In this document: piece by piece, positions 138 to 55,496 of the stretch
How positions within the stretch are numbered: position 1 is the stretch's first letter
Layout of the letters: every line of letters begins with the position of its first letter
From: Tieghemostelium lacteum
Taxonomy: Eukaryota > Evosea > Eumycetozoa > Dictyosteliales > Raperosteliaceae
Reading direction: 5' to 3'
Length of the DNA: 64,000 nt
NCBI GenBank assembly: GCA_001606155.1
Contig: LODT01000031.1
Span: 186,001 to 250,000 of the forward strand
Notes under the pieces: model-generated
What the model was told of the DNA's origin: nothing
What the model saw: only the letters and a program-made list of their open reading frames with translations
Databases searched by the model: none
Made by a program: the position numbers and the translations under genes

Positions 138-274
138 TTTCTCACTCCGGAGTCGACTTTTGCTAATAGTAAAATTATTAAAAATGTTAAGTTTATTGTT
201 CATAATTGAAATTTTTGTGATAAAATATAATAATTAATAAAAAATAAATTATATTCTACAATGTGTGTGGTTAA

Positions 275-1145: not shown

Positions 1146-1215
1146 TAAAATAAATTAAAATACCATTTTATTTACATTTCTATATTTATATATAATTTGT
1201 ATATACTATTATTGA

Positions 1216-3141: not shown

Positions 3142-3313
3142 TTTTTTTTTTTTTAATATGATTATTTTTATAAATATGTGTTTATCTTTCTGATTGATTA
3201 AATCAGTAACTGAAAAGTTAAGATTTTTTCTGTCACACACAACTCCCTCCAAAATAAAAAAATAAAATTTTTTTTATAATTAGATATCTCGTTGTGGGTT
3301 ACAGTGAATCTAG
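3142..3313. promoter_or_regulatory. Head-to-head promoter region
   Basis: These 172 bases separate the divergent starts of the CH-domain gene (3141, minus) and the large gene starting at 3314 (plus). They are AT-rich with long A/T runs (3141-3153 and around 3267-3275), as usual for dictyostelid promoters. No specific factor site is recognisable. Confidence 0.4.
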
Positions 3314-18394: not shown

Positions 18395-19343
18395 TTAGAC
18401 AGGTAAAAACATTCATCTGCCCCAGCCAATTGGGTTTGCTTTTGTACATAAATTTAAAAAAAATTTTTGTGAAATAAAAAAAATTTGAAAGAGAGTTAGA
18501 TTATCGTTGTTGGTTCAATCTATCATTTACAGATGAAGCATTTTTATGATTTGATTTATTTATTGGGCTTTTTAGTTTGCCAAACTCTTCATCATCTCTA
18601 CTAAAAAAAAAACTTATATTTATAAAATATTCATAAGAATCTAAATATAACTGTGGGATTTTTGTGATATAGTGGAGATAAAATCTCATTGGTAGTCATT
18701 GTGTGAAATAATTTTAAATTTCTAATTATTTTTTTTTTTTTTACAAACACTGATACAAGGTATAGATTTATCACCATCTCATTACCTCCAATTCCCTCTT
18801 TTTTATGTCACGTACACCTTTATACAATCTAAAAACACTTATCCAAAAAAGATAAGAAAAAAAAAAAAAAAAAAAAAAATCAAAACTCAATTTCATTTCT
18901 AAAAATATTTATATAAATTAAATTTAATTAATTTAATTTAATAGTTTTTCACATTTTTCCACTACACTAAAGACAACTTTTAAAAAAAAAAAAAAACAAG
19001 ATATCAAGCTCTCAATATACAATTATAAATTATATACATGTATAGATATTTCACAATTAAAATTTTACTATAAAAATAGTTGTTGAAATTTCCTCAAATT
19101 CATTGCCATTGAGAGAGTGTGTGGAAATTCAAACACAACAATAGTATTATTAAAAATTTTTTATATACCACACACCACTGTTCACCTACCCCCCAATCGA
19201 CAGAATTATTATTATAAAAACTTTATATTCACATAAAAACCTAAACACTCAAGTAATTTCAAATAAAACCAAACATATATAGGAGATAGAGATATAGAGA
19301 TAGAGAGAGTAAACAAACAGGACAGAGGACAAATAGAAGACGA
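18395..19343. other. Long intergenic region upstream of the histidine kinase
   Basis: About 950 bases between the DHHC gene and the kinase start. It contains a small possible minus-strand gene (18501-18689). The rest is very AT-rich with A runs of 20 or more bases (around 18859-18881) and 14 bases (18980-18995). A CA/C-rich block lies at 19167-19200 (CCACACACCACTG, CTACCCCCCAAT), and a purine-rich GAGATA repeat at 19281-19335 is probably in the 5' UTR. The CA-rich block resembles dictyostelid G-box/CAE-type sites in composition only. Confidence 0.4.
18501..18689 (-). CDS. Possible microprotein gene
   Basis: An open frame of 62 residues. Its second half is hydrophilic and coding-like (RDDEEFGKLKSPINKSNHKN, then ASSVNDRLNQQR). 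The first half has a plausible 51-nt intron (gttata...ttttttag) whose removal stays in phase and shortens the product to about 45 residues (MRFYLHYITKIPHRDDEEF). The family is unknown. The spacing, beyond the end of the DHHC gene and in the opposite direction, allows an independent gene, but support is only composition. Confidence 0.3.
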   Translation of the reverse strand: MRFYLHYITKIPQLYLDSYEYFINISFFFSRDDEEFGKLKSPINKSNHKNASSVNDRLNQQR

Positions 19344-22300
19344 ATGCTCTATTTGGAAATTTTAAAGAAGCTAAGTACGGCTGTTTGGCTATTTGATATA
19401 GAGAATAAACAATTAGTTTGGGGTAACCCAGCAGCAGCACAATTATGGGATGCATCATCGATAGAACAACTATTGATGAGAGATTTCTCATCTGACATGT
19501 CACTAGCAACAGAGATTCGACTTAAAGGCTACCTGGAGGAGTTCAAATTGGGTCTTTCAAAGATCCAAAATTGGACATTTTACCCAAATGGAAAGGGACC
19601 TTTACCTGTAATAATTAAATCCAGTGGAATTATGGTCAGCCTTCAAGAGACTATTGAATTGGGTCTGAAGGAAGTCAGTTCGAGATTCTATACACTGGGT
19701 ATCGAACCACCACAGGAGAGAATGCTCATGATGGTTGAAGCATTTTCTGATCAGAAAGGTTTTGAGTCAGAGAAAAACAAAGATTTACTACGTTCCATTG
19801 AGGCACTTAGACACACACCTGTAATGATATCCTATTTTGATGCATCGGATAGCAGTGGAAATATTCTCATTCAAAATCCTTCAAGTCTTGAAGTTTTTGG
19901 AAACAGTATACATTTTAAGGATATGTTTGTGTATCCGCAGGAATCGGAATTTGTCTATAATAGATTGGTTCACGAAGAGAATGGCGGTGTCTACCGAGGT
20001 GATCTCTTAATGAAGACACTCAATGGTAACCAATGGCATCGTATTGATGCAAGACTCTCGAGAGACCCTGTAACAGGAAACAAAGGTATAGTTATAAGTC
20101 ATTCTAATATTCATGAACTTCGAATTTATCAAGAGATTTTGGAAGAGAATGAAAAACGTCTTCAAGAAGCACAAGAGATTGCAAATTTGGGAAGTTGGGA
20201 ATGGGATCTTATTGAAAAGAGCACTAAGGTCTCTAAACAGCTTTTTAGAATCTTTGGTATAGATCCACATGAAATTGATGTTGGTATGAATTTTCCAGAG
20301 TTAGTTAAAGATTTAGAGGCTGTTGATATATTACCTTTGATATTTAAAGCCATTGAATCAAAATCAAGTTTTGAATTCTCTCATAGAATTAAAAGAAAGA
20401 ACGATGACAGTTTTAGAATTTTACATGTAAAGTCAGTATAGCTACTAGATTTGGAAATTTATTTGAATTTTATATTAATATAAAATTAAATTTGCAACAG
20501 GGGAGAGGTATTATTGAATAATGAATCATTACCAATTCGAGTTTTGGGTATTTCACATGATATCACAGATATTCAAATGGCAAGAGAAAAGATTGAAGAG
20601 GAGAGTAAATTTGTAGAGGCTCTGATTGGTTGTTTAAAAGCTGGTATTGTAGCTTGTAATAGTAAAGGTGATTTAACACATTTTAATAAGGCAGCTCAAT
20701 CACTTCACGGATTAGAACTGTCTGAGAAAACCAATAGAGTTGATTTATTTAGTAAAATATTGACTTGTTATAAGAAGGATCCAGTGATGTCTGCTGAAGA
20801 TTTAGAAATTACAAAACTGAATCTCGAAGAGGGTAAAGAAGAGGAAGATAACGAAGTGAAATCTAATATACCTATACTAAGAGCTCTAAGAGGTGAAACT
20901 ATAATAGATGATGAGATTAGCATTACTCCATATGGCTCACCTGAGAATCAAGAGCATGTGGTGTTGGCAAGTGGACAGGAAATTGTAACTAAAGATGGTA
21001 AAAGTGTTGGAGCTGTTATAGTACTACATGATATAACTGAGAGAAAACATGTTGAAGAAGAACTTAGAAAAGCTACTGAAACAGCTCAACATGCCAATCA
21101 GATAAAATCAGAGTTTCTTGCAAACATTTCACATGAGATTCTGTCACCTATGAACAGTATCTTAGGTCTAGTTGCATTGTGTCTTGATAACCATCTACCA
21201 AAGAATATTAAAGATAATCTAGAAGATGTATTTGACTCTTCACAGAATCTATTGATTCTACTTCAACAGATACTGGATTTCAATAACTTGGAATCCCATC
21301 GTCTCATATTTAAACCCAACCAATTCAAACTACGAACTACATTATATTCAATTCTTCAGTTATTCTATCGTAGAATAATTGAAAAGAAAGTGAATGTCAC
21401 TTGTAATATAGATCCACAAGTACCCGATGACCTCTTTGGTGAAGAATCTCGACTCAAACAGATACTGCTAAATCTCATTGATAACAGTATTAAATTTTCG
21501 TCACCCCTCAACCCCTCGAATTTTGTAAATATAACTGTAAAACTATTGAGCAAATCAGAGAATCAGAAGCTTATTGCTTCACTCCCATCTCCAAGTTTGC
21601 ATCAAACCCACTCGAGATCGAATAGTTTTGATCAACATTACCAAAAACTTCCAGATTTGACTTATGACTCGGACCAGAGTGATAGTGGTAGTGTATCAAG
21701 TCATGATGAGGGCTCTCAGATTACCATTCAGTTCTCTATTCAGGATAACGGTATTGGTGTACCATCTGACAAACATAAATACATTTTTGATAATTTCTTC
21801 CAAGTTGATGGTAGTTACACTAGAACTCGTGGTGGTATTGGACTGGGTTTATCTATATCTTATATGCTAGCTCAAAGATTTGGAGGTAATATGTGGTTTG
21901 AATCTGAGAATAACAAAGGTTCTACATTTCATTTTACCATTAATATCAAGAAATTACCTCCCATGGATTCTGATCCAACTAATGGTATACAAACATTTTC
22001 AATTAACCCTCATAGTCCAAGTCATACTATACATACAAGTAGTCCATTTACACCAAGACCCTCAAGTGCAACTGCAGCTTTACACAGCTCAAACAGTACT
22101 AATGAGTTAATTCTCATTAAACAGAAACTTCAAGGTATAGCCTATCCAACTGAACTTGTAAATAGAATATCATCCATATGTAATCCAAAGTCGATTACAA
22201 GTTCAACACCACCAACACCTACAACTGGTACCACACCTACTCTACCTTCTTTTACATGTTTCCCAATACCACCCATTAGCAGTGTAAAATACCAGAGTAA

Positions 22301-23543
22301 TAGTAAACTAAATAGTTCCTCATTACCTGTACCACAATCTCAAAGTGCACCAGCATCAAATTTAAGTTCACCTAAGGCTGATAAATTCTTGAATCCAAAT
22401 CAATCCAAGAGTGTTTTATCATCACCAAAATCATTTATAAATTCACCTATTTTATTCTCATTGAATCCAAATTTCCCATATCCCAATACCAGTAATAACA
22501 AAGCTCAAAAAAGTAATTATAATAATAATAACAATAATAATAATAACAATAGTTCATCAAATTTATTTAATCATCATCATCATCACCATCACCACCATCA
22601 TCATCAATCACAACAACATCAAAATATATCTCAACAACAACAACAACAACATGAAGAAATATCACCTTCAATACTAGTAAGTCAGTCTATGAGCAATATG
22701 ATTATTAATAATTCAACTGGAAATAATAGTCTTATTAGTAGTAGTTATGGTGGAGGTGGTGGAATTCAAAATAGAAAATCACCTAATATCACTATAAATG
22801 TAAATAATATAAAGAATAACAATTCACTTCCTTACCTGAATTTGCAATCATTGCAACAGGAACCACAACAGATATCAAAAGAGATTTTATCTCCAAAGAA
22901 TTCACCAACTAGTGATATTACACAACATCAACATCACCAACAACAACAACAACTTTTACATTTACAATCACCAATTTCAACATCGAGATCTATTACTACA
23001 CAACAATCGATATCACCATTGCTATCTAATTATAAGACTTCAAGTACTAGTGGGAAGTTAATGGTATCACCTGATATGAGTAAATCTACAAGTCAACATA
23101 CAGCAGGAGGACACTTCCAACCATTGGCAGCTGTTTCTAATAATCAAAAAGTACTGGTTGCCGAAGATAATCTATTGAATCAAAAGTTGATTAAAACTCT
23201 TCTTTGTAAGAGAGGTTTTGAAGTTTATATTGCTAATGATGGTAAAGAGGCTTTGAAGATTTATGAAGATAATATTGATAGTCCTTCACCATTTGATTGT
23301 ATTTTAATGGATATTCAAATGCCAGTTCTCAATGGTCTCGAAGCAACATCTGCTATTAGAAATAGAGAAAAGAGAGAAGGTGGACATACTCCTATCATTG
23401 CTGTGACTGCTCATGCCATGAAGGGTGATAAAGAAAAGTTCTTGGAAGCTGGTGTGGATGATTATGTTACTAAACCAATTAATCCTAAACTTTTATATGA
23501 GGTAATTGATACACAAGTAACCTTATTAAAAGCATCTAAATAA
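19344..23543 (+). CDS. Cytosolic PAS-containing hybrid histidine kinase
   Basis: Two exons (19344-20431, 20501-23543) give 1,376 residues. The join restores a PAS-type end (RILHVKGEVLLNNESLP, then ISHDITDIQMA). Several PAS-like modules occupy residues 1-500, including GSWEWDLIEKSTKVSKQLFR. The kinase core has H-box SEFLANISHEILSPMNSI with His574, N-box ESRLKQILLNLIDNSIKFS, G1 DNGIGVP, F-box FDNFFQVDGSY and G2 RGGIGLGLS. About 400 residues of Ser/Asn/Gln/His-rich linker follow (H11 and Q6 runs), then a receiver domain (KVLVAEDNLLNQKL; Asp1300 in LMDIQMPVLNG; TAHA; TKPI). There is no membrane segment. Dictyostelids have many Dhk/DokA enzymes feeding RdeA-RegA and cAMP; which one this matches I cannot say. 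The H-box departs from the usual 'SHEIRTPM' (ILSPM). Confidence 0.9.
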
Positions 23544-24078
23544 AACAAACACACTCAACCACCAACCACACTTTATTTAATATTAAAATTATTTATATAT
23601 TTATTTTGTTTTTTTTATTATTATTATTTGTTTTAACAGAATTGGAATTATAATTGAATTTTAAGATAGAGAGGTCAGTGAGAGAGGTGTCACAAAGAAG
23701 TATCAATGAAGATGTACAATGAAATTGAATTTTTTATTAGAATATACATTAGCAAATGTTTGAATTAATATTTAAAATTGTTATTGCCGACACATACACA
23801 CCACACACATTCCAATGTATAGTCTGTGTTTTTACAAAAATTAAATAAATTCAGCACACCCACACCTAATCTTGTGACATTTTTAAGATTTATTATCCGA
23901 TTAGATGTACTCTTTTTGAACTTTTAAGGAAAAAATAAAGATCAGTGAAAGGGATAATGGAATTTTAATGTATGTTTACAAATTAAGGGAAAAACTATTT
24001 AAATTGATTTAAAATTTTGAATGGTAAGATCATTTATATAAACAACAAATTAAAAGTAATAAAGAAATTAAATTTAAA
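23544..24078. other. Intergenic region
   Basis: The 535 bases between the kinase and the small gene at 24079 are AT-rich. They hold two CA-rich patches, at 23790-23812 (ACACACCACACACATTCC) and 23855-23866. No coding frame or RNA gene is recognised. Confidence 0.35.
23855..23866. promoter_or_regulatory. Candidate CA-rich (GBF-type) element
   Basis: CACACCCACACC lies about 215 bases upstream of the small gene at 24079 and 630 upstream of the huntingtin start. Dictyostelium GBF binds G/CA-rich elements of this composition in cAMP-induced genes. The assignment rests on one match in an AT-rich spacer. Confidence 0.3.
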
Positions 24079-24303
24079 ATGTTAATTAGTATGTTTTAGT
24101 TCTATCTCTTCTCTCTCTTTGATATATTAATTTCTTTCTTATAATCAAAATTAGGTTTGTTAGTAAGTTCTCCAAAAATATCTAGAAGTAAAATATCAAT
24201 TGAAGATCTAAATAGTAGCGATAATCTATTAAGATCTACTGAAAAAGGTAATAGACGAATAGTTATACATCACCAGACTTGGTTTCAACTCGCCAGAAAA
24301 TGA
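24079..24303 (+). CDS. Two-exon microprotein of 52 residues
   Basis: Exon 1 is only 10 bases (ATG TTA ATT A, 24079-24088). It is followed by a 66-nt intron with a textbook gtatgt donor and a pyrimidine-rich tract ending in ttag (24089-24154). Exon 2 (24155-24303) reads LLVSSPKISRSKISIEDLNS, then SDNLLRSTEKGNRR and IVIHHQTWFQLARK before TGA. The exon is clearly less AT-rich than the spacer. No signal peptide or membrane helix is evident, and the C-terminus is basic. I do not recognise the family. It lies 191 bases upstream of huntingtin in the same orientation. Confidence 0.5.
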
Positions 24304-24494
24304 AATAAAATAAAATAGTTGTTATTTATTTGAAAAGATAATGGAAAATTAAATTTTTGTTTTTTTTGTTTATTTTCATAAATTTGATTAGTTTTTCTCC
24401 AAAGTAATTTTTGTTGTTCACATTTACAAACACTGGTGCAGTGTGATATTTTTTTACATTACTATAGTAATTCAGTATTTTGATAAATCAAGAG

Positions 24495-27400
24495 ATGGAT
24501 CTAATACGTGCATTAGATGTATTATTGATTTCACCAATTGATACTGAAGATCAACAGTTACGAAAAGAAAAGATTGAAGCATGTAGGACTATATCTGACC
24601 AGATATGTGCTCCTTCATTAAGAAATACAGCTGACTTTACTAGATTTCTATCATTAGCAATACCTTTACTCCTAAGAGCACATGGAGATAAAGATTTAAA
24701 TGTTTATTCAGTTGCAGAAGAATCATTAAATAGAACAATTAAAGTACTTTATTATTATTATTCATAAACAATATTGTCTAGTTATTCAACTATTAACATT
24801 CTATCTTTTTTAAAATGTACCATTTAGATATTAATATATTCATATCATGAAAGAATTCTATTTGAATTATTTAAAGTATTAAAAGGTAGACAAATACCGA
24901 CAACCACAATAGCAGGAGGACAAGGTAGCGGAAATATAGCTACAAATGATGGAATGAATCCATCAGCACCTAATACACCTCAACGTGATAATTTGATTAA
25001 TAATATAACTAATCAACCACCTATACCAACTACAACTTCTACAACATTAAGTGGATCCAATTCAATATTTACACATGCTAATTTAGTTCTCAGCAGAGCA
25101 TTTCCTTTGAAATCACAAAGAATTGCTCTAATTAAATTTGGTGAGGTTTGTAGTTTTATCAGACCTTCAAAATGCAGAAAATACATTCTCTCTCTAGTTC
25201 CACCTATCAACACTCTTCTTCAGATTACAGAAGATGAGTCACTTCAAGAATCAATATCTATATCAATGGAGATGATTAGTAAGGTTCTTATTAGATATCT
25301 TACTGAGAGTGAAGCTCATCAACTCATTGAGTTGTTTATGCGAAATCTCTCACAGAAATCAGCAGCTGTTCGTAGATCAGCTTCGTTATCTATAACCTCC
25401 ATCTGTAGATACTACCCAAAACCTCTCTATGAATACACTATTGAAACTCTATATAATTTTATTCAACCACCTTCTAATAGTACAACTATTCAAGAGTCAT
25501 CTGAACTTAGTAATTGTAAGACATTAGGTGTACTATTCTCCTACCTACAATTGATTAAACTTTCAGAAGAACAGAGAAAATCTGATCCTAAAATATTGGA
25601 TTCTTTCTCTATTCAAATTCAGTTTTTTGTACATTTTATTCTAAAGTACATTAAATTACCAAACGAAACAACAACAGCACAGGAAAAGACTTATGATCAC
25701 AATGTAGTTGGTTTGGCATTGGATCTTCTTCAACAGCTTTTAGTGGCATTTGGTAGCTATGAATACTCTTGGCCTAAATCACTACTTCAAGAGGTTCTAT
25801 CTCAACTACGTCTACTATGTTTTAATCATCAACCTAACCATAGTGTAAGAGTCTCTTTGAAAGCAGTAATAATCAATTCACTCGCTCAAATTGTTAAATA
25901 TTTTCCAAAACTTTTTTACAATGAGTTCTATCTTGTTGCTAACCCAAATATAAATATTCAACATCCTCCTATAATCCCTCAGCAATCATCATCTAGTAGT
26001 AATAATAATAATAATAATATAAATAGTATAAATTCATCAACTGGTGGATTATCAACATCATTTAATGGACTGTCAGTTGGTGATATAAACTTTAAGTTGT
26101 TTAATCACATTACTGGTGAGAATCCATTAAATAGTTCAGCATCTTCTAGTAGTGGTGGTAGTAAAGATCTTCAATCTAGTTCTGCTCATATTACTAGTGA
26201 GCCTAGAGAGGAGTTTTTAGAGTATCTAGTGGACCAAGATCCACTATTACGTGGTAACTCTGCACTGTTGATTGGGTGTCTTATTAGAGGTTTCCTAGAG
26301 AGTGATCATATAACTAGTAATCAAATATATCCATCTAATGTACCACTTTTACAAGATAATCTATCTATTCCAATGTTACTTGTATATTTATTAAGATCAC
26401 TATTGGATTCGTCATCGGTTACTGCTAAATTAGCTTGTACAGGTATAGGTGAATGCATTCAAATTCTCTCACAATCACTCTATTCAGAATGGTCACTAAT
26501 ATCTCTTAGACATCTTCTTTGTGTAAGTTCATCAACTTATTGGTTGGTGAAATTGGAAATTCTTGAAACCTTATCTAAAATCGACTACATAGTTATTGAA
26601 TACCTAGAACAAAATATACAACAAAAATCAATGGTTTTATCAATATATAAACAACAACCAACACAACAACCACAACAACAAGATAGTAATAACAATAACA
26701 GTCAAGAAGAAACTGGTGGTGCTATTGCTATATCTATTCAATCTAAAGTCTTAGATTTCCTAATTGAACAATTATCAGATAATGATCATCGTGTAAGAAA
26801 TAGTGCTGGTGAGGCTTTAGTTAATATTATCCCTAGACTGGTATTTGCAACACCATTGGAAAGACATTCTGTAAAAGGTCTAGCTAATAGAGTTTATCAG
26901 TCATTTGATGTGCAAGGTCAAGATAGTGTAATTCTAAGAAAAAAGAGAGTATTTGCAAATTTGTCACATTGTGTTGGAATGTTGGTTAATCAACTTAGTA
27001 ACCCTCACCCAGATGACAAGATTCGTGGTTGTTATCATGCACTGAATCTATTAGTAAAGGTTTATTCATTTCCTATAGATACACCAGAGCATACCAGACT
27101 ACTTTCATCATCATTAGCTAATCCAATGCTTGCATTCCTCGGTGATATCTTACCATTAGCTTTAGATAGAGTTGGTCTGTCTTGGGTTGCCAATGACTTT
27201 GATTTGCATATTGATATCATTGAGATATTAGGTTACCTATCAAGAGGTGCTGAAAATGTACTCGGAAACTATTGCCATAATGTACTTAGACACATTGTAA
27301 GAATTATCAATATTTCTACAAATATCATTCAATTCCGACCTACACCTCCATTAAAAGAGGTTAAAACATCGTCTTCTACCTCCTTGGTAGGATCACCAAT

Positions 27401-30400
27401 AAGTAAAAGTGGTGGTATTTCATCAGTAAATGGAATATCAGTTAGTGGAGGTATTGGATCATCGTCAAGTTCCAGTACGAATATCACCAGTAGCAGTAGT
27501 GGTTCATCTCATTTAGGTGCATTTACTCACTCTATTCACTATATAAAACTGTATGCAAAATTGTTGGCAACACGTACCAATAGCATAACCACATTTGGTC
27601 CAGATAAGTTTAGTCAATTACGTAAAGTTTGTTTTGAAACTCTAGCTGTAATGTTAAAATGTGCATCCAAATCAGTTATTCCACATTGCGATGAATTGAT
27701 TAGTTATATGACCTTACATTTTGAACAGGAACCAAATAGTGTTATTAAATGTCTACAAGAACTCTTTTTAATCTCCATGAAACCTACACCCGTGGTATCT
27801 CTCAGTGGACTATCAAGTAGTAACGCAATGAAATCTGGTATTAACACCAGCAGTGGTAATCTTAAATCCCAACTTGTAAATTTAGAACCACGATCTATAG
27901 AGCAACAAACTTCAAATTCCAACCCACACGATGACCAATTCCTCAACCAGAAATCAGTGTACTCTGGTTTCTTGACTATATCAAATCCACAACTGAAGCA
28001 GTGGTATCAGTACCTTGGTAGACCAAGTAGTTTAGATATCACCAATTCCTTCTCATGTCAGGAAATCAATAGAGTTGTACAAAATAGTGAAGATAAGAGA
28101 TCACTTTTCAAGCAATTTGAACCTCTAATGGTTAGTTCAATGCTAGAGTACCAAACTACACATTCACTAGAACTGAAACAATCTGTTTTGTTGATGCTCT
28201 CCAAATTTACAAAATTTGGTCTAGATTTGACATTATTTGATAAAGATCAGACATTCCCTAGCTATCTATTTGAAGAGTTAAAAGAAACACAGTCACTCCT
28301 AAACCAACCATCTCAACTGCTATCTTATAGTTACGACTTTTTTGGATCACTATTCATCTACAGAAGATTGTTTTCTGATAACATTCATCTGGATGATTTA
28401 GTTAATATATTCCCATTAAAAGACTCTGGAAATAGTTTTTCACCATCTTATTCCAATGTGGTAATCATTGAAAACAGTCATTCCTTTATACGATATCTTT
28501 TTGAGGCCAATGACAAGTATCCAGAGACCGAGTTCAGAGATAGTTTCCTCAGTTTTCTATTAAATAATCTACAGTTTAGTCAGACTGTAGATGCACTTAT
28601 TCTTCTATTGGATTGGATAAAGACTAATAATGCATTGTATAGTAAATACAGTCAACAAATTGCCAACAAATTCTATCAATGCTTGTCAATGGGTGACTCA
28701 CCATTCTTTATCATTAATACCATTGAAGATCTAGAGAAACTCTATACTCTAACTGATCGTCTACATCCCCAATCTATTTTAGCTACAAGATGGGCTGATG
28801 CATTACTCTCAGCATCACCAGAATTTATTCGTAATCCACCATTAACTAAACAAGACCCTCTACAGAGAAAAACTAGAGTACTCCAACTGAGAGAATCTCT
28901 ATTGGAGGCATATGATCTTAGATGGTTACCAACACTTTTGGTACTCATTAGAAGTGGTTGTAAAATACCAGAAGAAGCTAGAATATCAGCAGCTAGACAA
29001 TCACTATTTCTATCCTATCACGACAATAAGAGTAACCCATCTCCATCTGCCAATATTATATCTCAACTTTTAATTAAAATGATTAGAAATGCCATTCAGA
29101 TATTCACTACCTATAAACCTAGAGATCCACTATTTGTCAGTCTAATCAACCATCTACTGTACTATAGCTGTCTATTTTTTAATAAGACATTGTCAACTCA
29201 GTACCACAGTATCAATAATAGCATGAATAGTAGTCTATCACATCCACTTACTATTTCACCAAGTAACAATAGTAATAGTAGTGGTTATAAAATACCATTG
29301 TTTTTAGATTCGTTACACAAGGTAGTGGATTCAGCTAACTTTATTGAAATTAGTAAATTACTCTTCCAATTTGGTGGAATATCTAGTAGTATACATGCAG
29401 GTAGATTCCTCTTACTTTTAACTCCACCTACAGTTGCTATTGGTGCTGGATCATTAAGTAAAAAGCCTGTACTAGATAACGAAATTTGGAGAAGTTACGC
29501 AATGTCCACTCACTGGAATCAAACTGGATGTGAACATTTCCTCACTCATCATTGTATATTTCTATTGTATTGTCAAGCATTAATCTGCTGGAAAATACCA
29601 ATTACAGAGAGTCTATTATCTGAATCTTTTCTGGATAAAGTTGTACTATTAATCAATGAGCCAACTATTAGAAAACTTGTTGACCATATCATTGGTAATT
29701 TCCAATCTCTATCTGCTCTGTTAATGTCGCATTTGAAAAAGATTTGTTCTAAAACCTCTTCTAGCTCCTATAATTTGGATCAGAGAAAGAAACAAAAACT
29801 GCTTAGACTCTTATCCTACTTGCCTTCGAATCAGGAAACAATGGAATTACTCATTACTAATTTCCTACAAAGTGATGATATATCATTGCAAGTAAGTGGT
29901 GAAAGAATTCTAAATCTATCACTGAACCAATTAATTGATAAAAATAGTCAAGAAAAGTCATTTGAAATCATTCAATCACTCTACAAGATATTCATGCAGA
30001 ATTTCCATAAGTCTACTACCAATCTACAGATTGAATCGTTGTTCCTAAAGTTGATTAAAAATCTATCAAAAGACAATCAACAGATTGATAATATCAAAAT
30101 CAATGAAATCAAAACGGAAGAGATTACCATTGAAAATCTCATTCAGAGTAGTTCAACCCCTGATGAAGGACCATTAAATATAATACCAATCAAGTATTTC
30201 ACTGAAATCATTAAAGGACAATATGAGGTTGATTCTGAAAATGCATTTACCAATATTTCTAATCTCTCTCAAATCAGTAGAGAAGCAACTATAGAACTTC
30301 TTTCTAGTCCAAAATTAGATGTATCATTACTACCTAGTTTTATCAGTTCCAATCTCTCTGTTGACTATCAGGAATATCTCTCAGAGTATCTTCTAAAGAA

Positions 30401-33346
30401 AATTGATACTCTTTTGGATCAACAGTCTAGTACATCTACACTACAACACCAATACTCACCTATTAGTGACCAAATTTGGGATGAGCTTAGAGAGGTTTCT
30501 AGATCATTGGCTAATTATATTAATAGATTTGGTTCTGCTGAATTCCAAGAGAGTAAATTACTAAGGATTACAACATTAACTTTTATTGAATCCTTTAGAA
30601 GATGGAAGCTCGAAGTTATCAATCCCTATGACTTTAAACTGGTTTTAGAACTATCAAGATCTATAATTCTCAAGAGTTCATCAAGTATTTTAATTATCAC
30701 TGATGATTCAGCTTGGTGTTCGCTGTTATTGTGTCTCTATAAGTTATATTGTCTGTTGATTAGACCACATTTTGGTTATATCCCAGGCCAGAGAGAATTG
30801 GAGGAGAATTTCAGTCAGGATCCAACACAGGTATCTTTGACACAATCTAATGAAATGATTAAATTCCTTGTATGTCTGTTGACTAATGCCAATAGTCTTA
30901 AACCTACTAAAGGATCTCATATAGGTCAATTACTATTTGATTCGTTTATAAGATCAATTATTCCATTGGCTAACAAGGCATTTGATTTTATATATCCTAC
31001 TGCTTCGAATAGTGCTGATATGGATGATGAATATGGCGGAGGTATTATTCCAAATCTACCAATATTCTCTGGAATAGTTGCACCTGAACAGAATATGAAA
31101 GCATTGGTTAAATTTATCCACTATGTAGATATTAATGATTCTGTTGCATTTGACCAGATTTGGGGAATACTAGAACCTATATTTGTATGTCCTTTGGGTG
31201 ACGCTGAAATTGGTAGCGATGAGATATCAGAGGAGTCAAAATGTATATCTTTGCAAGGAATGGTTTCCATGATTATAAAAGTGTGTTTTGAATTGACTGG
31301 TGTCAATAGTAATGTAAATCTATTAGAGACTTCAACCATTCCAAAGTCAACACATAACCATATTCCCAGAGAAAAAGATCTCCTATTCTTGCATACCAAC
31401 AGTGGAAAGAAACTAAATGGTCTCCTTTCTATCATCTATGATAGTTTACCACAAAGTGAAGTACCATTGAATAGAAACGACCAACAAAATCCATTTAGTT
31501 TTTATACAAACTCTGCTGGTAGTAGTGACTCAATGCCATCAAGTAATGACACTGTTGGTGGTGGATTCTCTTCGTATCACTTTAACATTGAAAGATCCTT
31601 TAATAATACCAGTAAATCGTCTTTTGGGTGCTACCAGATTAGTCTTTCCGATTTGAGATTATTTAAACCACCAATGTTTATTGGTATTAACTTTACACCA
31701 ATTCTAGAGAAACTATTGGATAGTTTTGAAAGTTTCCTCTCCAGTTCAATGTGTCCACCACTACTAAAGAGAGAAATTCTGCGTTCAACTCTTATTCTCT
31801 CTGATTTGTTTAATCGTGAACAAACACAATGGATGCTAAGATTATTCAATAGTATTCTACAAGCAGAGGATATTGATGATTTCTTACTGAAGCAGTCATT
31901 AATTGTTGGTATTTGTAAGGCATTGGCTGTATTACAACCACCAATACCTATTGCAACAGAGGACCCTAATCATCCAACTATGATTTTTGAAATGCTCAAA
32001 CAGGCACTAGAACATCCAAATATATCTTTACAATGTTCAGCACTAGACAGTGTCTTGTATCTATTAGAAGCAAAAATCAACAAGTATATTCAAGGACCTC
32101 TCCTTCAATACCTATTCAAATGGATACCAATTAAATTAACAATTCAACAGCCAACAACTGCACCTGTAAATTTAACATTAAGAGTTTTGTCAACAATGTT
32201 CCTACTGGTTGAACAATACTCTAGAGAAGCTGAAGAAATATCTTTTACCAAAAGGGCTGTTATTACATGCATTCATCTAGGTCAGCAACTATCAACACCT
32301 ATACCTATTGTCTATGGTGTCTTTAGAGGTCTTGATAGATTACTTGTTTCCTTCTCATTAAGTCACACTCAAAGAGAGCTAATTTCACATTTCTCTGTTA
32401 GATCTCTACCTCTAGAGAATCCAATTCGATCAATGTTAGCTTTGGGTCTAATGATTACATGTATTTACACTGGAGATGAAACTGGTATTACCTCACCTCA
32501 AGTACAGAAATCAAGCACACCATCCATGTCTAATAGTGGTAATTCTCTTACTGCATTCTCTGGTAGCTCTCCAAATGGTGAATCATCACTCTCCTTTAGT
32601 TCTGATTTGGTTTTGGAACAAGAATTAAATGATTCATTTGAAACCCTGGTATATGGAGCAAATCCAAATACTCCAGGACTGAATCCACCAAAACAACGTT
32701 ATCAACGTATTAATAATATGGAAAAGGTAAAGATGTTATTTGATAAAATCAAGCAAGTCTCTCACTACTCCTATGAAAATATTATCCTATCTGATGTCAT
32801 ACCAGTTATCATTCTAGATTTATTCCCCTCAGTTGATCAAATACTTTCATTTATGTTGGGTGAATTCCTAAAACAATCTAAATCCAATCCAAAATTGATT
32901 TGCCAGATTCTAAGCAATGTATTCAATTTACTTTTAGACGTACCAGATGAACAAGTAAAAAAATCCAATCAAAATCTCATCTACTTTTGGATTATAATTT
33001 GTTTACAAAACTTTTTCCAAATTCAAAACCAATCTCACTGTCTATGGTGTCTTACATTTTTATTCTTAACCTCATCTCCAAACAAACTATTTAAATATTT
33101 GTAAGTTAAACTTTTTGTATAACAGGTAAACATTAGTCATATTAACATTTTATTTATCCCTTTAGAATTCCAGAGTTTTCATCAAAGATTCAATCAAATG
33201 AAAAACTATTTTTAATTGTTGCAACTGAATTCTTTTACAACAAAAACCTATCAAATGAAAACAAAAAGATATTTTTGGATTCATTCTCAAAACAAACAGA
33301 AGAACCATATTTATCTCTAATGAGAATTTGTCAATTAAATAAATAA
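24495..33346 (+). CDS. htt: Huntingtin homologue, full length
   Basis: Three exons (24495-24743, 24828-33100, 33166-33346) give 2,900 residues, close to the roughly 3,100 of animal huntingtin. The N-terminus MDLIRALDVLL, then ACRTISDQICAPSLRNTADF and VAEESLNRTIK, follows human huntingtin's first HEAT repeats. Other matching blocks are DHNVVGLALDLLQQLL, VDQDPLLRGNSALLIGCLIR, SVTAKLACTGIGECI, SSTYWLVKLEILETLSKIDY and DNDHRVRNSAGEALVNIIPR. The last exon, KKIFLDSFSKQTEEPYLSLM, fits the human C-terminal tail. Huntingtin is a cytosolic HEAT-repeat scaffold for vesicle transport, autophagy and cytoskeleton. No polyglutamine follows the first 17 residues; the only Gln-rich tract is near residue 690 (QQPTQQPQQQ). 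Low-complexity inserts occur at the human-type loop positions. Introns 1 (84 nt) and 2 (65 nt) carry GT-AG signals. Confidence 0.9.
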
Positions 33347-33447: not shown

Positions 33448-35433
33448 TTATTTTTTTAAAGCATTTACAATGGCATCAGTGGTGATACCTAAAGTTTTGG
33501 CAACTTGAGCACCTGGAGCACTTAAACCAAATCTATTAATACCAATAACTTTACCGTCGAGACCAACATATTTTGACCAGAAATCTGGTTGAGAAGCTTC
33601 AATTGCAAGTCTATTTCTGCAAGATGATGGTAAAACTTGTTCTCTGTATTCAGCGGATTGTCTATCAAATCTTTCAGTTGATGGCATGGAAACAACACGA
33701 ACACCTGATCCTAATTGTTTGGCTGCTTCAACAGCCAATTGAACCTCACTACCAGTTGCAATGATAATAGTTTCCAAGGCGGTGGTTTCCTTGACTAAGA
33801 TGTAACCACCCAAAAGGGTACCTTCTCTCTTGGTCTTGGTGTCAACAGCTAAGTATGGGAGATTTTGTCTGGTTAATGCAAGGAGAGTTGGACCACATTT
33901 TCTGGTGAAAGCAGCAGCAAAAGCAGCAGCAGTTTCTTCTGGATCGGCTGGTCTGATAACATCGAGATTTGGAATCAAACGAAGAGCTGGAATGGATTCA
34001 ACTGGTTGATGAGTTGGACCATCTTCACCAACAAAGATGGAATCATGAGTGAAAATATAGACAACTGGTAAACCAACCAAAGCTGCAATTCTGATGGATG
34101 GACGTAAGTAATCAGCAAATACCAAAAAGGTAGCACCTGATGGACGGAAAATACCATGATAAGCAATACCATTCAACATGGCACCCATAGCATGTTCACG
34201 AATACCAAATTTAATATTTCTACCAGTTAAACAAGATGGAGTAAAATCTCTACCTTCACGAATGTAATTTAAGGTGGAACCATGTAAATCAGCACTACCA
34301 GAGACCAACAATGGTAAAGCTTGAGAAACTGGTTGCAATACATCAGAACCAGCTTTTCTGGTGGCAATGACATCCTTGTTGGTGAATTCTGGGATTTTAG
34401 CCATCAATTCTTTGGTATCAACTTCGGCGGAGGCAGACTCCAATAATTCAGCCAATTTTGGATTGGCAGTCTTCCATTCAGCATAGAGTGATTTCCATTG
34501 GTTGTATTTCTCTAAGAGTTTGGCTTGATGAGATTCAAAGTATTTTCTGGTTTCTTGGGAGACAAAGAATTTCTCTTCTGGTAAACCTAAAGCTTTACGT
34601 GCACCATCTACAAATTTAACACCAGCTTCACCATGACCTTTGTTGGTACCAGCAACTTCTGGAATACCTTTGGCAATGATGGTCTTACAGACAATTGCTT
34701 GAGCTTTTCCACTCTTACTGTTTCTGGCTTGATCATAAGCCTTTTGAATATCCAAAATATTGTTACCTTGAGCTACAACTTGTACATCAAATTCCAAAGC
34801 TTCGAGTCTTTTAACAACATCATCAGATTGGGTTTCAATGGCCATGGCATCAAGAGTTACATCATTGCTATCGTAGAAAACAATTAAGTTATCCAAACGA
34901 TGGTGACCAGCAAATGAGAGGGCTTCTTGAGAAATACCTTCTTGTAGACAACCATCACCTACCAAAACAACAACCTTTTGGTCGAGGATTTTGTGTTGTT
35001 CAGTATTGAATTTACCAGCAGCCATTTTACAACTGGTAGCATAACCAACGGCATTGGCAACACCTTGACCCAATGGACCAGTAGTGGCTTCAACACCTGG
35101 AGTCTCATGGAACTCTGGGTGACCTGGAGTTATACTGTGTAATTGTCTAAAGTTTTTAATGTCTTCTAAAGTGATTTTGTAACCACTCAAATGTAACCAA
35201 GAATAAAGTAACATTGAACCATGACCTGCAGATAAAATGAAAATATCTCTATTCAACCATTTAGTGTCTTGTGGGTTGTAGTTTAGAGAGTTACCAAATA
35301 ACACAGCGGCAATCTCTGTGGATCCTAATGGTAAACCTAAATGTCCACTGGCTGCTTTAGCAACAGCATCCATTGATAAACCTCTAGCCTCAGCACAGGC
35401 TTTAGTTAGAGCTTCTAAATTTATAGTTGACAT
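33448..35433 (-). CDS. tkt: Transketolase
   Basis: A single exon of 661 residues. Transketolase moves two-carbon ketol units between sugar phosphates in the non-oxidative pentose phosphate pathway, in the cytosol, using thiamine diphosphate and a divalent metal. The N-terminal domain has AAKAASGHLGLPLGSTEIA, SAGHGSMLLYSWLHLSGY and the ThDP motif GDGCLQEGISQEALSFAGHH ending in a metal-ligand Asn/Asp stretch (DSNDVTLDA). The second domain has FGIREHAMGAMLNGIAYHG, with the Glu that activates the cofactor, and FVGEDGPTHQPVES. Length and domain order match bacterial/animal-type enzymes. Codon use is more GC-rich and uniform than in its neighbours, as expected for an abundant enzyme. Confidence 0.97.
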   Translation of the reverse strand: MSTINLEALTKACAEARGLSMDAVAKAASGHLGLPLGSTEIAAVLFGNSLNYNPQDTKWLNRDIFILSAGHGSMLLYSWLHLSGYKITLEDIKNFRQLHSITPGHPEFHETPGVEATTGPLGQGVANAVGYATSCKMAAGKFNTEQHKILDQKVVVLVGDGCLQEGISQEALSFAGHHRLDNLIVFYDSNDVTLDAMAIETQSDDVVKRLEALEFDVQVVAQGNNILDIQKAYDQARNSKSGKAQAIVCKTIIAKGIPEVAGTNKGHGEAGVKFVDGARKALGLPEEKFFVSQETRKYFESHQAKLLEKYNQWKSLYAEWKTANPKLAELLESASAEVDTKELMAKIPEFTNKDVIATRKAGSDVLQPVSQALPLLVSGSADLHGSTLNYIREGRDFTPSCLTGRNIKFGIREHAMGAMLNGIAYHGIFRPSGATFLVFADYLRPSIRIAALVGLPVVYIFTHDSIFVGEDGPTHQPVESIPALRLIPNLDVIRPADPEETAAAFAAAFTRKCGPTLLALTRQNLPYLAVDTKTKREGTLLGGYILVKETTALETIIIATGSEVQLAVEAAKQLGSGVRVVSMPSTERFDRQSAEYREQVLPSSCRNRLAIEASQPDFWSKYVGLDGKVIGINRFGLSAPGAQVAKTLGITTDAIVNALKK

Positions 35434-35714
35434 AGTTACAAAGAGGTATTTAAATTGCTTTTGGAAAGATAAAATTTGAAGATGAAAAAAAAAATTTTAC
35501 TAACAATTTGTAGAGGGCAGAAGATATTTTTTTTTCATTCCACACAATAAATTTCATTCAGGAAGAATTCGGTCAGAATGGCAATTTATTTAGGTTTAAA
35601 ACTTAGTAAATCTAGATTTTAATACCAGAATGCAAAGACAGTTCCGAAATTAATTAAAAATCTCCTCGAATTCTAAAAACTTTAAGAAGATTCCGAATTT
35701 AATAAATCGATTTA

Positions 35715-41596: not shown

Positions 41597-43697
41597 ATGA
41601 AGATATATTTATTATTAATTTTAATAATATGTGTTGGTTGGAATCTTGCATTTCCAGCTTCAACAGAAATGTTAAATAAAACCAATAGTTATTCAATTGT
41701 AGGTCGTTCAGTTTCTGGTAGAGTTTCTCCATTACTTTATTCAATTGGAACTTGTGATATCAATGGTGATGGTAAAAAGGTATTTTATGAATTATTAAAA
41801 GATTATATTAGAATATTTTGGACTAATTTAAATCTTTGCAACCTAGGATATAATTTTTAATAATGGTGATGGTTATGTTGTATTATTTGGTGATGTTTCT
41901 AGATTTGGTGATTCTAGACCAATAAATGATTCATTTGCAGATGGTATTAATGGATTTAAAATTAAGATTATTGATGTTGAGAGATTCCCAGTGTGTGGTG
42001 ATGTGAATGGAGATGGAATTGATGATATAATGGTTACAAATTCTGAGCTTATGAGAGGATATGTATTTGTTATATATGGTAGTAAAAGTCCATTTAAAGC
42101 TACAATTGATTCTTTTGATGGGATTAATGGTTTGAAAATTATGGCTGAACAGGATCAAGATTTTGGTAGAAGATATAGTTCTTTGGGTGTTGGTAAGGTA
42201 ATTTGTGACGTAAATGGTGATGGAGTAAAAGATTTAGTAATGTCAACATATATGGGATTCTTTGGTGGGACTACAAATTATGAAAATAGAATCTTTGTAT
42301 TATATGGTCTTAAAAATGGATCAAAGTTCACTACAGATATTAATGGAGAATATAAAATTTATGAAATTGTAGAGGATAAGGGTTTTAAAATTACTGGTCT
42401 GTATGGAGCTACCCTGACTTGTGGTGACATTAATAATGATGGTTATGATGATTTATATTTACTCAACCCCAATAGTCAAATTGTGTTTGGTAAAGCAACT
42501 TTTCCTCTTAACTATCTACCTAAATTTGATGGTAAAGAGGCTCTTAATATCACTGGAATTACATGGGCAGATAGTCGTTCTGGTACTTCAAGCTTTGGAG
42601 ATTTCAATGGAGATGGATTGATAGATATGGCAGTCACCAATGGCAACTATTCTTCATATGAAGTCTACATCATTTTTGGAAAACAAAATGAAAATTGGCC
42701 TTCAACATTTGATGTCAAAAGTAGAAATTCTTCCAATGTAATTGCTTTTACAAAAGGTAGTGGTTCGAAAGCTTATAATTGTGATTCATTGATGATGGGA
42801 GATATCAATGGTGATAGCTTTGATGATCTTCAGTGTTACACACCAGAGTTTGTTTGGGTTGTCTATGGTAGTGATTTACCTTTTGAATCAGTAGTGGACT
42901 TGTCAGCTACTACCTCACCTTTACTTGATGAATGTAGAGGTTCAATAATCCAAGAAGTCAATGGTAGAGTACTTGCCAATGCTGATTTTAATAATGATAA
43001 AATTAAGGATTTAGTGGTTTATAAAAGTAAGGTACTTTATGGTATATATGGAGAGAAACTTCCAATGAGTGCATCTTTAGGTTTAAGTTATACAAAATTA
43101 GAATATTCAGCAAATGGTAGTTATATTATCTTGGAAGGTAAATATAGTCCAGTCTCTGGAAAATGTCCGCTAACTAGTATCAAAGTACAAGTTATAAATG
43201 CTCAGCCTAGTGATTCATTAGATATTGCTTCATCCAATGACATTACAGTCAAAAAGTTATCTCCAAGTACCATTATCATTTACAATATGAATCGTGATTC
43301 TAAATTTCTTCAAAAAATTTCAAAAATTCAATATTCAACTCAAAGAAATGATAGTTTTGCTATTATCAATTTTAACTACCCTGGATACCTTGATGAATCC
43401 ATATTAGTTAAAACCACAGCTCCACAAATCAACGTAATCCCTTGTATATGTCCAGCTAACAATATCTGTATTGATTCCCTCTGTGTTCCACCTGGTGCAA
43501 CTGATACCAACACAGGGTGTGCAAAGTACCCTTGTACTTATGGACTAGAATGTGACGCTACTGTTAATAAATGTGTAATCCCAAGTGCTTGTATGTCATG
43601 TTTTGATCTTAAATGTCGTAGTAATGAAAAATGTGAATTACGTAAATCAAGTTATTCCGAAACTTGCAAAATCTTCCCATTTTGTGTGCCTGTTTAA
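41597..43697 (+). CDS. Secreted FG-GAP (integrin alpha-like) repeat protein
   Basis: Two exons (41597-41779, 41847-43697; 67-nt intron) give 677 residues. A signal peptide (MKIYLLLILIICVGWNLAFP) precedes several FG-GAP blades with calcium-loop motifs: CDINGDGKKDIIF, CGDVNGDGIDDIMV, CDVNGDGVKDLVMS, CGDINNDGYDDLYL, FGDFNGDGLIDMAV, MGDINGDSFDDLQC and NADFNNDKIKDLVV. Together these make a seven-bladed propeller. The C-terminus is Cys-rich (CICPANNICIDSLCVPPG, KYPCTYGLECDATVNKC, CMSCFDLKC). No membrane anchor follows, so it is likely secreted or cell-surface associated. A role in adhesion or matrix binding is inferred from the fold. The propeller resembles integrin alpha and bacterial FG-GAP proteins alike. 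Confidence 0.8.
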
Positions 43698-47081: not shown

Positions 47082-47723
47082 TGTGATTGGTGGAGAGCTT
47101 AATCTGATCTTGCCCAATCGAAAAATATCCTTCCAAATTTTAAAAAAGATTAAATCAAAAAATCGTTAAATAGTTTTCAAAAAAACTCTTATTTTTAAAA
47201 AGTTTAGAGTTTTAGTTTAAATTATATTTTTTTGTATTATAAATTAATAATTGTATTTTTTCTATTAATCACAAAGTGTCTTGAGATACTAAAAAAAAAA
47301 AACTTAAACCAAAACCCAAATTTCCAATTTTCCCCCACCCCACTTCATTCTTATAACAGAATCATTATAGTCTGTGAGTGAAAACACATCATCAATCTTG
47401 GATTTGTGCCGAAAAATCAAAATAGATAGATAGTTTAAAATAATTTCATCATATCAAATTATAGTAATTACCAAATTTAAAATACAAATTTAAAAAAAAT
47501 AGTAATTCATCATTTAACACATTCATTTTATCTAAATTAACACAAACACACATAGACACTAACCACACCACACTTTATAGATTTATTAAAATAGATAAAA
47601 CATTGTACAAATACTCCTTAGTAAACCTAGTTACATTTTTGAAATTCACCCCAATCAACACACTCACACAGCCACTAACTTCTCCCCACACGATTGTATA
47701 AAAAAGGAAAATTTAAAGAGAAG
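46865..47723. other. Long intergenic region upstream of the RasGEF
   Basis: Apart from the doubtful minus-strand frame, this stretch is AT-rich with A/T runs. Close to the RasGEF start (47535-47690) it becomes C/A-rich (ACACACATAGACAC, CCACACCACACTTTATAG, CACACTCACACAGCC), probably promoter or 5' UTR, like the CA-rich leader before the histidine kinase. No RNA gene seen. Confidence 0.35.
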
Positions 47724-50700
47724 ATGGAGAGGATAAAGCATTTAAAGTTACCCAACAATAACAATAACAATCTATTGGGTGGTGGTAATTCATTATTGGT
47801 AAACAGAAACAGATCACAATCAATAGATATGATTGTAATGGACGAAGTATCTAAACACGGTACATTAACAACATGGAATCATTTAGTAAATGATAATAAC
47901 AACAATACGGAATTAATAAATAGTGAATCAAGATTCAATACCCCCATAAATAACAATCTTCAACTAAATAATTATAATAATAGTAGTAATAATAATAATA
48001 ATAATAATAATTTTAATAATAACAGTACACCAACACTACTGGTTAGTAACAATATAATTTTTAATCATAATAAAAATAGGAGTAATAGTGCAACAAATTT
48101 AAATTCTAGTAACATTAATAACAGTAATAATTTTGGCATCACTATTAACAATAATAGTAACAGTAGTCCTAATAGTTTAAATAACACTATTCACCAACCC
48201 AACCACAATAATATTAATAATAATAATAATAATAGTAGTCAAAAGAATTTCTCTATTATAAACCCATTAAATTTTCAGGCACTTAGAGAACAAAGTGGAT
48301 CCAATAGTGTCAATAGTTCTCCACCACTTTCACCTAGAAACTCATTAATGAATACGGCACCTAATTTATCATCATTTATTGCACAACATACACCTCCACC
48401 TTCACCAAGACTCTATGTCAGTGGAGGTGATTTACAACAACAATTAGTACAACAACAACAGCAGCAGCAAGGTAGCTCAAAATCACTTAGCAACAGTAAC
48501 AGTTCTCTACCTGGGCTACCCTCATCACCAACGCTAAATAACAGTAGAGATCAACCATTTAGAAATGACTACAGTTTTAATAGCCAGAAAATTAGTTCAA
48601 TGCAATCACTGGATATGACACTTTCAAAATCAATATCACAATCCAGTAGTCATGTAGATAGTAGTTCAATTCAAAATTCAACAAGTCAAAATTCACAAAA
48701 TGGTGCAAATAATGTAACAGGAGATAAAGATAAAAATAATAGCGCTAATCAACAACAGAAAAAGAAAAAGAGAGAAAATAAGACAGTTAGAAGACTAAAA
48801 CGATTTCTAAGTAGAATTATACTGTCACCATTTTGGGCATTTTTAATGATACTGTTTATAGTATACATTTTGTTTATTGATGATATTATTGGTATTTGTA
48901 GATCACCAAGCTCCACAATACTCAATATCATAGTGATAGCAATTAAGCTATTAGTAATGTTATTTTTCACACTGGATATGATTGGCAATTCGATATGCTA
49001 CCAATCGCAGTACATTCCTCATACTATTATATTTTGGTTAGATCTCCTGTCTACCCTATCTATAATACCGGATATATATATGTTTTTCCAAGACGTCAGT
49101 TTAGGTCACAGCTACTTGGTTCTAAGTATAGGTAAAAGTGCTAGAATCATTCGATTGTGTGGTTGTTTTCTACAGATTAGTTTTATATCATTTTTCTATA
49201 AAAAGTTTTTCAAGAGAAATAACCCAACAGTCGGTCCATTGTCTGGTGATGAATTGGAAGTTGAGGCTTCTAAACTAGGTGAAAAACTCATTAGATTGAC
49301 TACCAATAAATTGGTACTATTGGTTTTACTTGTGTATTGGGCAGGTCAATTACTCACCTATCCATCTGAACTTCCTGCACAATTACTAAAATCACAAATT
49401 GACTCTCTAGAATTCATGTCACTGCAATTTGGTATCACATCAGATACCTTTAATAACTACCTGGATAATTATATACAATCAACTCCAGAACTTTTAACTG
49501 TACAAATCAACAATACCCTCCTTTTCCAAGACCAACCGACAATCGATAAACTTCAACTTTATTCTCAATTTGATTACTCAACTGGTAATTCTAAAATATT
49601 ATTAAATAATTCAGTATGTATAATAACATTTAAAACAAAAATAGTTATATATTACAAATTATTAATCTTTTAATATTACTCTAACAAAATTAGGAAACTA
49701 TATTTTATACATCAATTTTACATTTAGTTTTTACAATATTTACAATTGTAATTATAATGATAATTAATTTATTCATTGTAATTGATGCCTACGGATTAGT
49801 CATTAATCCACTAGAGAATGTATTGGCAATTGTAAAATTCCTCAGTAGACAGAATGCAGTAATGCAAAAGAGTACTGCTTTGAAGATTCAAACTAGAGAT
49901 AGAGTGGAATCTGTTGGAAACAAATCTGAGGATACTACCAGTAGTAGTGCAGATGTTGACGATCCAGATGAAGCTGATTATCTATTGGGAATGTTGAATG
50001 ACATTGATGATAGTCTTCAAGCAGCCAAAGAAAAAGTTCAAGTCGAGTCCATCCAAAATAGTCTATTGAAGAAGGATATTGAAGATCTCTATGTTGAGAA
50101 ATATATTTTACAAGTACATTTAAGATCAGTCATCAGAAAAGCACCAGTAGAGGACGACCCAATTGGTAGTTATCTGAAAAAGAAACAATTAGCATTGCTA
50201 TCCGATACATTACCATTTGCAGACGATATACGTTTCAAAGGTGGAAATGGTGCAAATGATCAAACGAATATCGTAGTTGCAGGAACTCTCGATGCACTGG
50301 TGGATAGATTGACTCTAAGCGAAAATCATGACTTGAAATTCACCAATATCTTTTTGTTGACATTTAGAAAATTCATGTCACCTATTGAACTGATGGAAAG
50401 ACTAATCATCAGATTCTGCGTAACACCAACAATGGAACTCCCAGAAAAACAATTGGAATCACCAGACCAAGTCGAACAATGGAGAAAACTAAAACAGGAA
50501 CAAATTAGAGTTTCAGTATTCAATACACTGAAACTGTGGATTGGTAAATACAATTGGGACTTTTACGAAAACCAAGAACTTTTAGAGTTATTTAATAACC
50601 TAGTTCAGAGAATTATGCCATTCTGCAAGATGGAAAGATACGCTTCACATCTAGATTCTTTCCTCAAGAGAAAGATGACAAACTACCAAAATGACCCTGA

Positions 50701-51481
50701 ATTCACTCCATTGAAAGTTCTAACCTCTGAAGAAATTGCTCACATGATGGTAATGGAAGATAGAGTCTTGTATAATTTCGATATTCATGATGTTGCAATT
50801 CAAATTACTCTCATTGAATTTGATCTCTTTAAAGCTGTAAAACCACAAGAGTTCTTGGACTTGGCATGGACAAGTAAAACTAAGACTGTCAGAGCTCCAA
50901 ATATCTGTAAATTTATTGACCATTTTAATAACGTTTCATTCTGGCTACAAACACTTTTGGTAAAGAGTGGTAAGGTTAAGGACAGAGTATCCATTCTCAA
51001 AAAGATCATTGCACTAGGTGAATCTTTTGTACAATTGAATAACTTTTATGGTGCTATGGAGGTTCTTTCTAGTTTGGAGAGTTCTTCAATTGCAAGATTA
51101 CATAGAACTTGGGAGATGTTACCAGCAGCATCCAGTCAGAGTCTCCAGAATCTTCAAAAATTGTTGTCTCCAATGGGAAGCTTTAAGGAGTACAGAGAAC
51201 GTCTCAAGTTGGCTACATCAGCTTGTATACCTTACATTGGTGTATTTTTATCTGATTTGACATTTATCCATGAAGGTAATCCAGATATGAAGGAGGGTAC
51301 TCTAATTAACTTTTTAAAGCAAAAAGATATTGCAAGTATTATCCTTTCTATTCAACAGTACCAAAATACCTACTATTACTTTGAAGTCAACGAAAAAATA
51401 ACAAAGGAATTGAATATGCGTGGTATCGATTCTGATACCATTTGGAAGATGAGTTTAACTGCCGAACCAAGAAGAAATTAA
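47724..51481 (+). CDS. RasGEF fused to a six-helix voltage-sensor-like membrane module
   Basis: Two exons (47724-49613, 49694-51481) give 1,225 residues; the start is the ATG at 47724. Residues 1-350 are Asn/Ser-rich. Helices follow at about 368-395, 401-427, 432-455 (HTIIFWLDLLSTLSIIPDIY), an S4-like segment near 467-485 (SIGKSARIIRLCGCFLQI) with few charges, 526-550, and after the intron 634-663 (TIFTIVIIMIINLFIVIDAY). Between the last two is a probable extracytosolic loop. A coiled coil (SLQAAKEKVQVESIQNSLLK) leads to RasGEF-N (VAGTLDALVDRLTL, TFRKFMSPIELMERLIIRFC) at about 824-900. The catalytic Cdc25 domain starts near 989 (ITLIEFDLFKAVKPQEFLDL) and includes FYGAMEVLSSLESSSIARL and PYIGVFLSDLTFIHEGNPD. 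It should load GTP on Ras at a membrane. Confidence 0.85.
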
Positions 51482-55493: not shown

Positions 55494-55496
55494 CAC

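Follow-up and report, generated by a model that had tools for sequence, protein, structure and literature searches.

The question raised by positions 24495-33346 of a 64,000-nucleotide stretch of Tieghemostelium lacteum DNA (contig LODT01000031.1; the whole stretch is called the window here) is whether this dictyostelid encodes an entire huntingtin and, if so, what its protein carries at the position of the human N-terminal polyglutamine tract. The locus is almost certainly the huntingtin (htt/hd) gene, encoding N-HEAT, bridge and C-HEAT parts that follow one another as in human, and our analysis supports a complete huntingtin orthologue without N-terminal polyglutamine or polyproline.

The identity of the protein rests on profile and structure-database searches. 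In Pfam, the three huntingtin families were the top three of 11 matches at E values up to 10, each 82 to 144 bits over its cut-off: Htt_N-HEAT (170.5 bits, cut-off 26.2, E 8.3e-50, residues 552-1363), Htt_C-HEAT (113.5 bits, cut-off 25.3, E 9.2e-33, in two stretches, the better of which aligns residues 2389-2654 with positions 598-858 of a 1007-position profile) and Htt_N-HEAT_1 (113.4 bits, cut-off 31.2, E 1.6e-32, best stretch 177-278). A different large HEAT/ARM protein, be it TBCD-like, karyopherin-like or a PIKK-type solenoid, might look like huntingtin merely by resemblance, and there are indeed matches to generic families, namely HEAT, the sole other Pfam match above its cut-off (25.7 bits against 23.5), and ARM_TBCD_2nd (26.3 bits). 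However, the latter falls under its own cut-off of 29.7 bits, far from the excess scored by the huntingtin families, and all ten distinct sequences matched in the PDB, again at E up to 10, were huntingtin (best E 1.7e-95). Both searches rank huntingtin above any other HEAT protein, in agreement with an earlier sequence-only reading of this DNA, and we reject the alternative identity, the chance of which we regard as negligible.

The gene model comprises three exons on the plus strand (24495-24743, 24828-33100 and 33166-33346), which join to 8,703 nt encoding 2,900 residues and a single terminal stop. Exon 1 specifies residues 1-83 in the spliced translation, with a start codon backed by the N-terminus of the Dictyostelium discoideum protein; exon 2 specifies residues 84 to 2841, the codon for L2841 being split by intron 2, and lies in a stop-to-stop frame (24828-33104) that is open over 2,758 codons; exon 3 supplies the C-terminal residues and the stop, as indicated by the human alignment and by an in-frame score of 0.31 per codon, which is coding-like (exon 1 scores 0.38). 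Intron 1 (24744-24827, plus strand) is 84 nt long and reads GTACTT...TTTAG, and intron 2 (33101-33165, plus strand) is 65 nt long and reads GTAAGT...TTTAG; their GC contents are 19% and 23%, against 31%, 33% and 23% for exons 1, 2 and 3. Both introns appear to be genuine, since the MAFFT pair alignment with human huntingtin runs ungapped across each join. At the first join, LNRTIK/ILIYS faces human LNKVIKALMDS; at the second, FKYL/IPEFSS faces human AAILPHVIS, with the nearest gap some 8 residues further on, and this join also falls inside a stretch (2710-2870) matched by phmmer. A hidden AT-rich intron within exon 2 was rejected, as a scan for GTA[AT]G or GTAAAT starts and [CT]AG ends enclosing 50-260 nt at <20% GC returned no candidates. 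With an intact frame, two GT...AG introns and one terminal stop, the three-exon, 2,900-residue model put forward earlier stands.

How far does the likeness to human huntingtin extend? The best PDB match comprises six colinear phmmer stretches (residues 21-107, 178-388, 544-681, 900-1400, 2388-2640 and 2710-2870), which follow the human order from residue 21 to residue 2870 of the 2,900 and leave 1401-2387 unmatched. The MAFFT alignment gives 671 identities in 2,595 aligned positions, or 25.9%, a rough figure in which weakly aligned parts are counted. We also compared 11 overlapping segment pairs by local alignment, each against 200 shuffles, using as reference human huntingtin 84-3144, which agrees end to end with PDB entry 8yae; eight of the 11 pairs outscored every shuffle. 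These included two regions missed by phmmer, 690-900 (z score 8.9) and 2060-2390 (z 10.2). The signal in the former stems from 718-756 alone, and residues 760-900 fall within the Pfam Htt_N-HEAT match; that in the latter spans 2071-2384 and is strong in 2200-2360 (z 6.6, 0/200 shuffles as good). Relative to human, the pair alignment places a low-complexity insertion without human counterpart at residues 108-177 (24900-25109, plus strand), further insertions at 678-698 and 2660-2713, and several gaps in the T. lacteum protein across human 386-716.

The part of the protein that occupies the human bridge position, residues 1401-2060 (28779-30758, plus strand), shows no similarity detectable by phmmer, Pfam or hhalign searches, which counts against an end-to-end huntingtin match. 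A phmmer search with residues 1346-2367 alone found no PDB match at E up to 10, and a Pfam search of two pieces covering the bridge part returned no huntingtin family. Single-sequence hhalign, which recovered both positive controls (E 3e-15 and 1e-18) and gave a weak match for 690-900 (probability 21%, E 0.001), failed to detect the bridge and had no match in 2060-2387. The bridge pairs 1400-1700, 1650-2060 and 1400-2060 were matched by 23, 10 and 35 of the 200 shuffles, respectively; the best local match of 1400-2060 lies off the colinear line (window protein 1646-1681 against human 2294-2330); and just 3 of the 31 60-residue pieces of 1401-2387 fall near that line, roughly as many as the 8% or so that chance would place there. 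A single-sequence AlphaFold2 model of 1400-2389 was mostly helical but, with a mean pLDDT of 37.5, unusable. Pairwise similarity is likewise weak in 760-900 and 2060-2200, where 13 and 22 of the 200 shuffles, respectively, did as well. On the other side stand the order of the flanking matches, a length between the phmmer anchors of the same class as in human (987 residues, where chain 8vlx has 1,041), and a weak signal in global alignment, in which 1401-2387 (z 5.4), 1690-2060 (z 3.8) and 1401-2060 (z 2.6) were each equalled by none of 200 shuffles, while 1401-1700 was equalled by 79 (z 0.3). Order, length and this weak signal suggest that residues 1401-2060 may correspond to the bridge. The block-by-block match to human huntingtin claimed by the sequence-only reading is therefore borne out for much of N-HEAT and C-HEAT but not for 1401-2060, which is most of the bridge.

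At the N-terminus, the match does not begin where it had been thought to, at the N-terminal helix. The PDB match begins at residue 21, and residues 1-20 (24495-24554, plus strand), which stand in place of human 1 to about 95, have no recognisable likeness to human N17. When residues 1-17 were set against human N17 without gaps, the score without Met was -11, which 43% of 20,000 shuffles reached, and conservation of N17 by sequence was accordingly rejected. The D. discoideum N-terminus can be decoded from primer sequences given by Myre et al. 2011 (PMC3084204): its first 14 residues, MDLIRGLDILSASP, are identical to those of the window protein, MDLIRALDVLLISP, at 10 of 14 positions, a level equalled by none of 100,000 shuffles. 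The other three targeting primers yield peptides of 3-4 residues, which are too short to be placed with confidence; one of these, ILSL, matches best at residue 203 but is not securely placeable. Because the two N-termini agree at 10 of 14 positions, the start codon at 24495 is very likely correct.

Residues 1-17 might nevertheless be a true but diverged counterpart of N17, after which the human lineage inserted polyglutamine and polyproline. Both are short N-terminal stretches directly ahead of the first aligned block, and their helical hydrophobic moments over 17 residues are alike (0.356 and 0.354) and similarly unusual, being reached by 17% and 11% of shuffles, so that this measure fails to separate the two. 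However, besides the absence of sequence similarity, the moment over the first 13 residues is unusual in human (4% of shuffles) and ordinary in the window protein (30%), and the D. discoideum N-terminus, which matches that of T. lacteum, scores -8 against N17. Overall, we find such a descent rather doubtful. Since N17 is unrecognisable by sequence, the absence seems to extend to the entire exon-1 module of human instead of being confined to a tract inserted after residue 17: N17, polyglutamine and polyproline together have no recognisable counterpart, and about 20 residues of another N-terminus precede the aligned part. The earlier statement that the insert after residue 17 is absent holds for the tract itself and seems to understate what is missing.

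We also considered whether the protein might begin further upstream. An in-frame stop precedes the start at 24468-24470, and in the 951 bp upstream (23544-24494) the longest CAA/CAG run on either strand is 2. In D. discoideum, a GFP fusion was expressed from 595 bp of sequence 5' of the ORF (open reading frame) plus the opening 42 bp of the ORF (PMC3084204), so that, on this published account, an upstream coding exon is unlikely there. An upstream exon carrying a glutamine tract in T. lacteum was rejected, given the short CAA/CAG runs and the matching D. discoideum start.

Two small elements do lie between the huntingtin gene and a neighbouring histidine kinase gene: a mini-exon at 24079-24088 (ATGTTAATTA), with donor GTATGT, a 66-nt intron and acceptor TTAG, and, at 24155-24247, a piece of 93 nt that resembles coding sequence (LLVSSPKISRSKISIEDLNSSDNLLRSTEK). 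Together these could be a small gene, an upstream ORF or a 5' extension of huntingtin. In the last case they would be spliced in frame to 24493 and add 35 residues ahead of MDLIRALD. The reading frames of both pieces fit together and, by reading of the sequence, also fit an AG at 24491-24492, and the scored stretch 24157-24249 lies at the 51st percentile of coding 93-mers and scores higher than any of 100 overlapping noncoding 93-mers free of stops. However, 30 of 300 simulated upstream sequences contain a stop-free 93-mer that scores as high, and the acceptor, ATCAAG, looks weak by the splice preference of amoebae. The extension contains no Gln, and the ORF used for the D. discoideum GFP fusion opens with the orthologous Met, preceded by the 595 bp of 5' sequence that drove expression (PMC3084204). 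We consider this extension improbable and retain the start at 24495.

Across the whole 2,900-residue protein, Gln runs reach at most 3 residues and Pro runs at most 2, which confirms the lack of N-terminal polyglutamine and polyproline. Gln is densest in residues 672-710, at up to 10 per 30, close to residue 690 where the earlier reading had placed a Gln-rich, probably disordered loop; the stretch at 678-710 (26610-26708, plus strand; longest Gln run 3) overlaps the 21-residue insertion at 678-698, which fits a loop. The longest Asn run (6; residues 475-480, 26001-26018, plus strand) lies opposite the gap-rich human 386-716. As background we took 31 of the 32 other ORFs of at least 140 residues, measured stop to stop (13,802 residues; the nested ORF 54236-54688 was excluded), in which runs of at least 5 residues number 7 for Gln and 9 for Asn. 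At this rate about 1.5 Gln runs of at least 5 would be expected in 2,900 residues, and by a Poisson model none would be seen about 1 time in 4. Because so few are expected, the lack of a long Gln run is unremarkable. The claim that the missing tract is in itself newly informative about its origin is weak on this count, and also because the D. discoideum case was published in 2011.

With regard to function, the protein is by orthology a large alpha-solenoid scaffold of HEAT repeats; it would work as other huntingtins do and would probably pair with an orthologue of HAP40, a huntingtin partner that co-occurs with huntingtin in D. discoideum (PMC7725122). D. discoideum null cells are reported to be viable but to have disorganised F-actin, to be extremely sensitive to hypo-osmotic conditions, to stream poorly and to form defective spores (PMC3084204); by analogy with this knockout, the T. 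lacteum protein could support cytoskeletal, osmotic and cAMP-dependent developmental processes.

Several neighbouring genes were also observed in the window. Upstream, 20490-23543 encodes a portion of a hybrid histidine kinase in which HisKA, HATPase_c and Response_reg domains occur along with runs of Asn, His and Gln; in the ORF that precedes it (19290-20441), a PAS match falls short of the Pfam cut-off. Downstream, a transketolase gene on the minus strand (33448-35496) lies tail-to-tail with huntingtin, the stop codons being separated by about 100 bp. Positions 41847-43697 encode a protein with FG-GAP repeats, which may form an integrin-alpha-like beta-propeller. At 47679-51481 there are two adjoining ORFs, possibly one gene, of which the first has apparent ion-channel-like membrane segments by eye and no Pfam match and the second has RasGEF_N and RasGEF domains; a channel-like protein fused to a RasGEF would be unusual, if true. 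Finally, 52698-55505 on the minus strand encodes a calponin-homology domain protein with Gln-, Thr- and Ser-rich stretches and a zinc-ribbon match under the Pfam cut-off.

How does this huntingtin compare with those already known? With the human protein (PDB 8yae, 8vlx, 6ez8 and 6x9o) it has in common the order of N-HEAT and C-HEAT and the C-terminal block. In contrast to human huntingtin, it has no recognisable N17, no polyglutamine and no polyproline, its bridge is not detectably similar, and it carries the insertions at 108-177, 678-698 and 2660-2713. A chordate huntingtin, that of Ciona intestinalis (2,945 residues, 34% identical to human), is likewise described as being without N-terminal polyglutamine and a proline-rich region, and the first CAG triplets at the disease position have been placed in sea urchin and amphioxus (PMC8004120). 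Among amoebozoans, PMC7725122 mentions a huntingtin from Planoprotostelium, and the D. discoideum protein is treated both in PMC8004120 and in the report that described it in 2011 as having no N-terminal tract (PMC3084204). Among the publications listed by our literature searches, we found none on huntingtin from dictyostelids beyond D. discoideum. A dictyostelid huntingtin and its missing N-terminal tract are already known, and the gene described here is a further orthologue, which probably makes a second dictyostelid huntingtin available for comparison.

The closest comparison is with D. discoideum huntingtin (hd, DDB_G0272344; PMC3084204), which, like the T. lacteum protein, is reported to have no N-terminal polyglutamine and no polyproline domain. 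The two starts resemble each other, with 4 differences in 14 residues, and are unlike human N17 by sequence. The D. discoideum protein has 3,095 residues encoded in four exons, whereas that of T. lacteum has 2,900 encoded in three, and the 19 Gln at residue 533 of the former, encoded by CAA and one CAG (PMC3084204), contrast with a longest Gln run of 3 in the latter. The D. discoideum-like N-terminus, the AT-rich DNA with short introns and the many Asn and Gln runs fit a dictyostelid source, while protein length, exon number, the missing 19-Gln tract and the four N-terminal differences set it apart from D. discoideum. All that follows from the absence of this internal tract here is that the tract is not always present within the group, and the lack of any such tract is a small new point. 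We tentatively propose, while doubting it slightly more than we believe it, that dictyostelid huntingtins have their own conserved N-terminal segment (MDLIR-LD-L--SP) replacing the animal N17-polyglutamine-polyproline module and also that the D. discoideum lineage gained its internal run of 19 Gln recently. If this is true, the whole exon-1 module would have been added on the animal side, and huntingtin would never have required a Gln tract for its function in dictyostelids. While no mechanism is changed by it, the comparison of the two dictyostelid proteins lends modest support to the view, already published, of an origin of the disease tract within animals.

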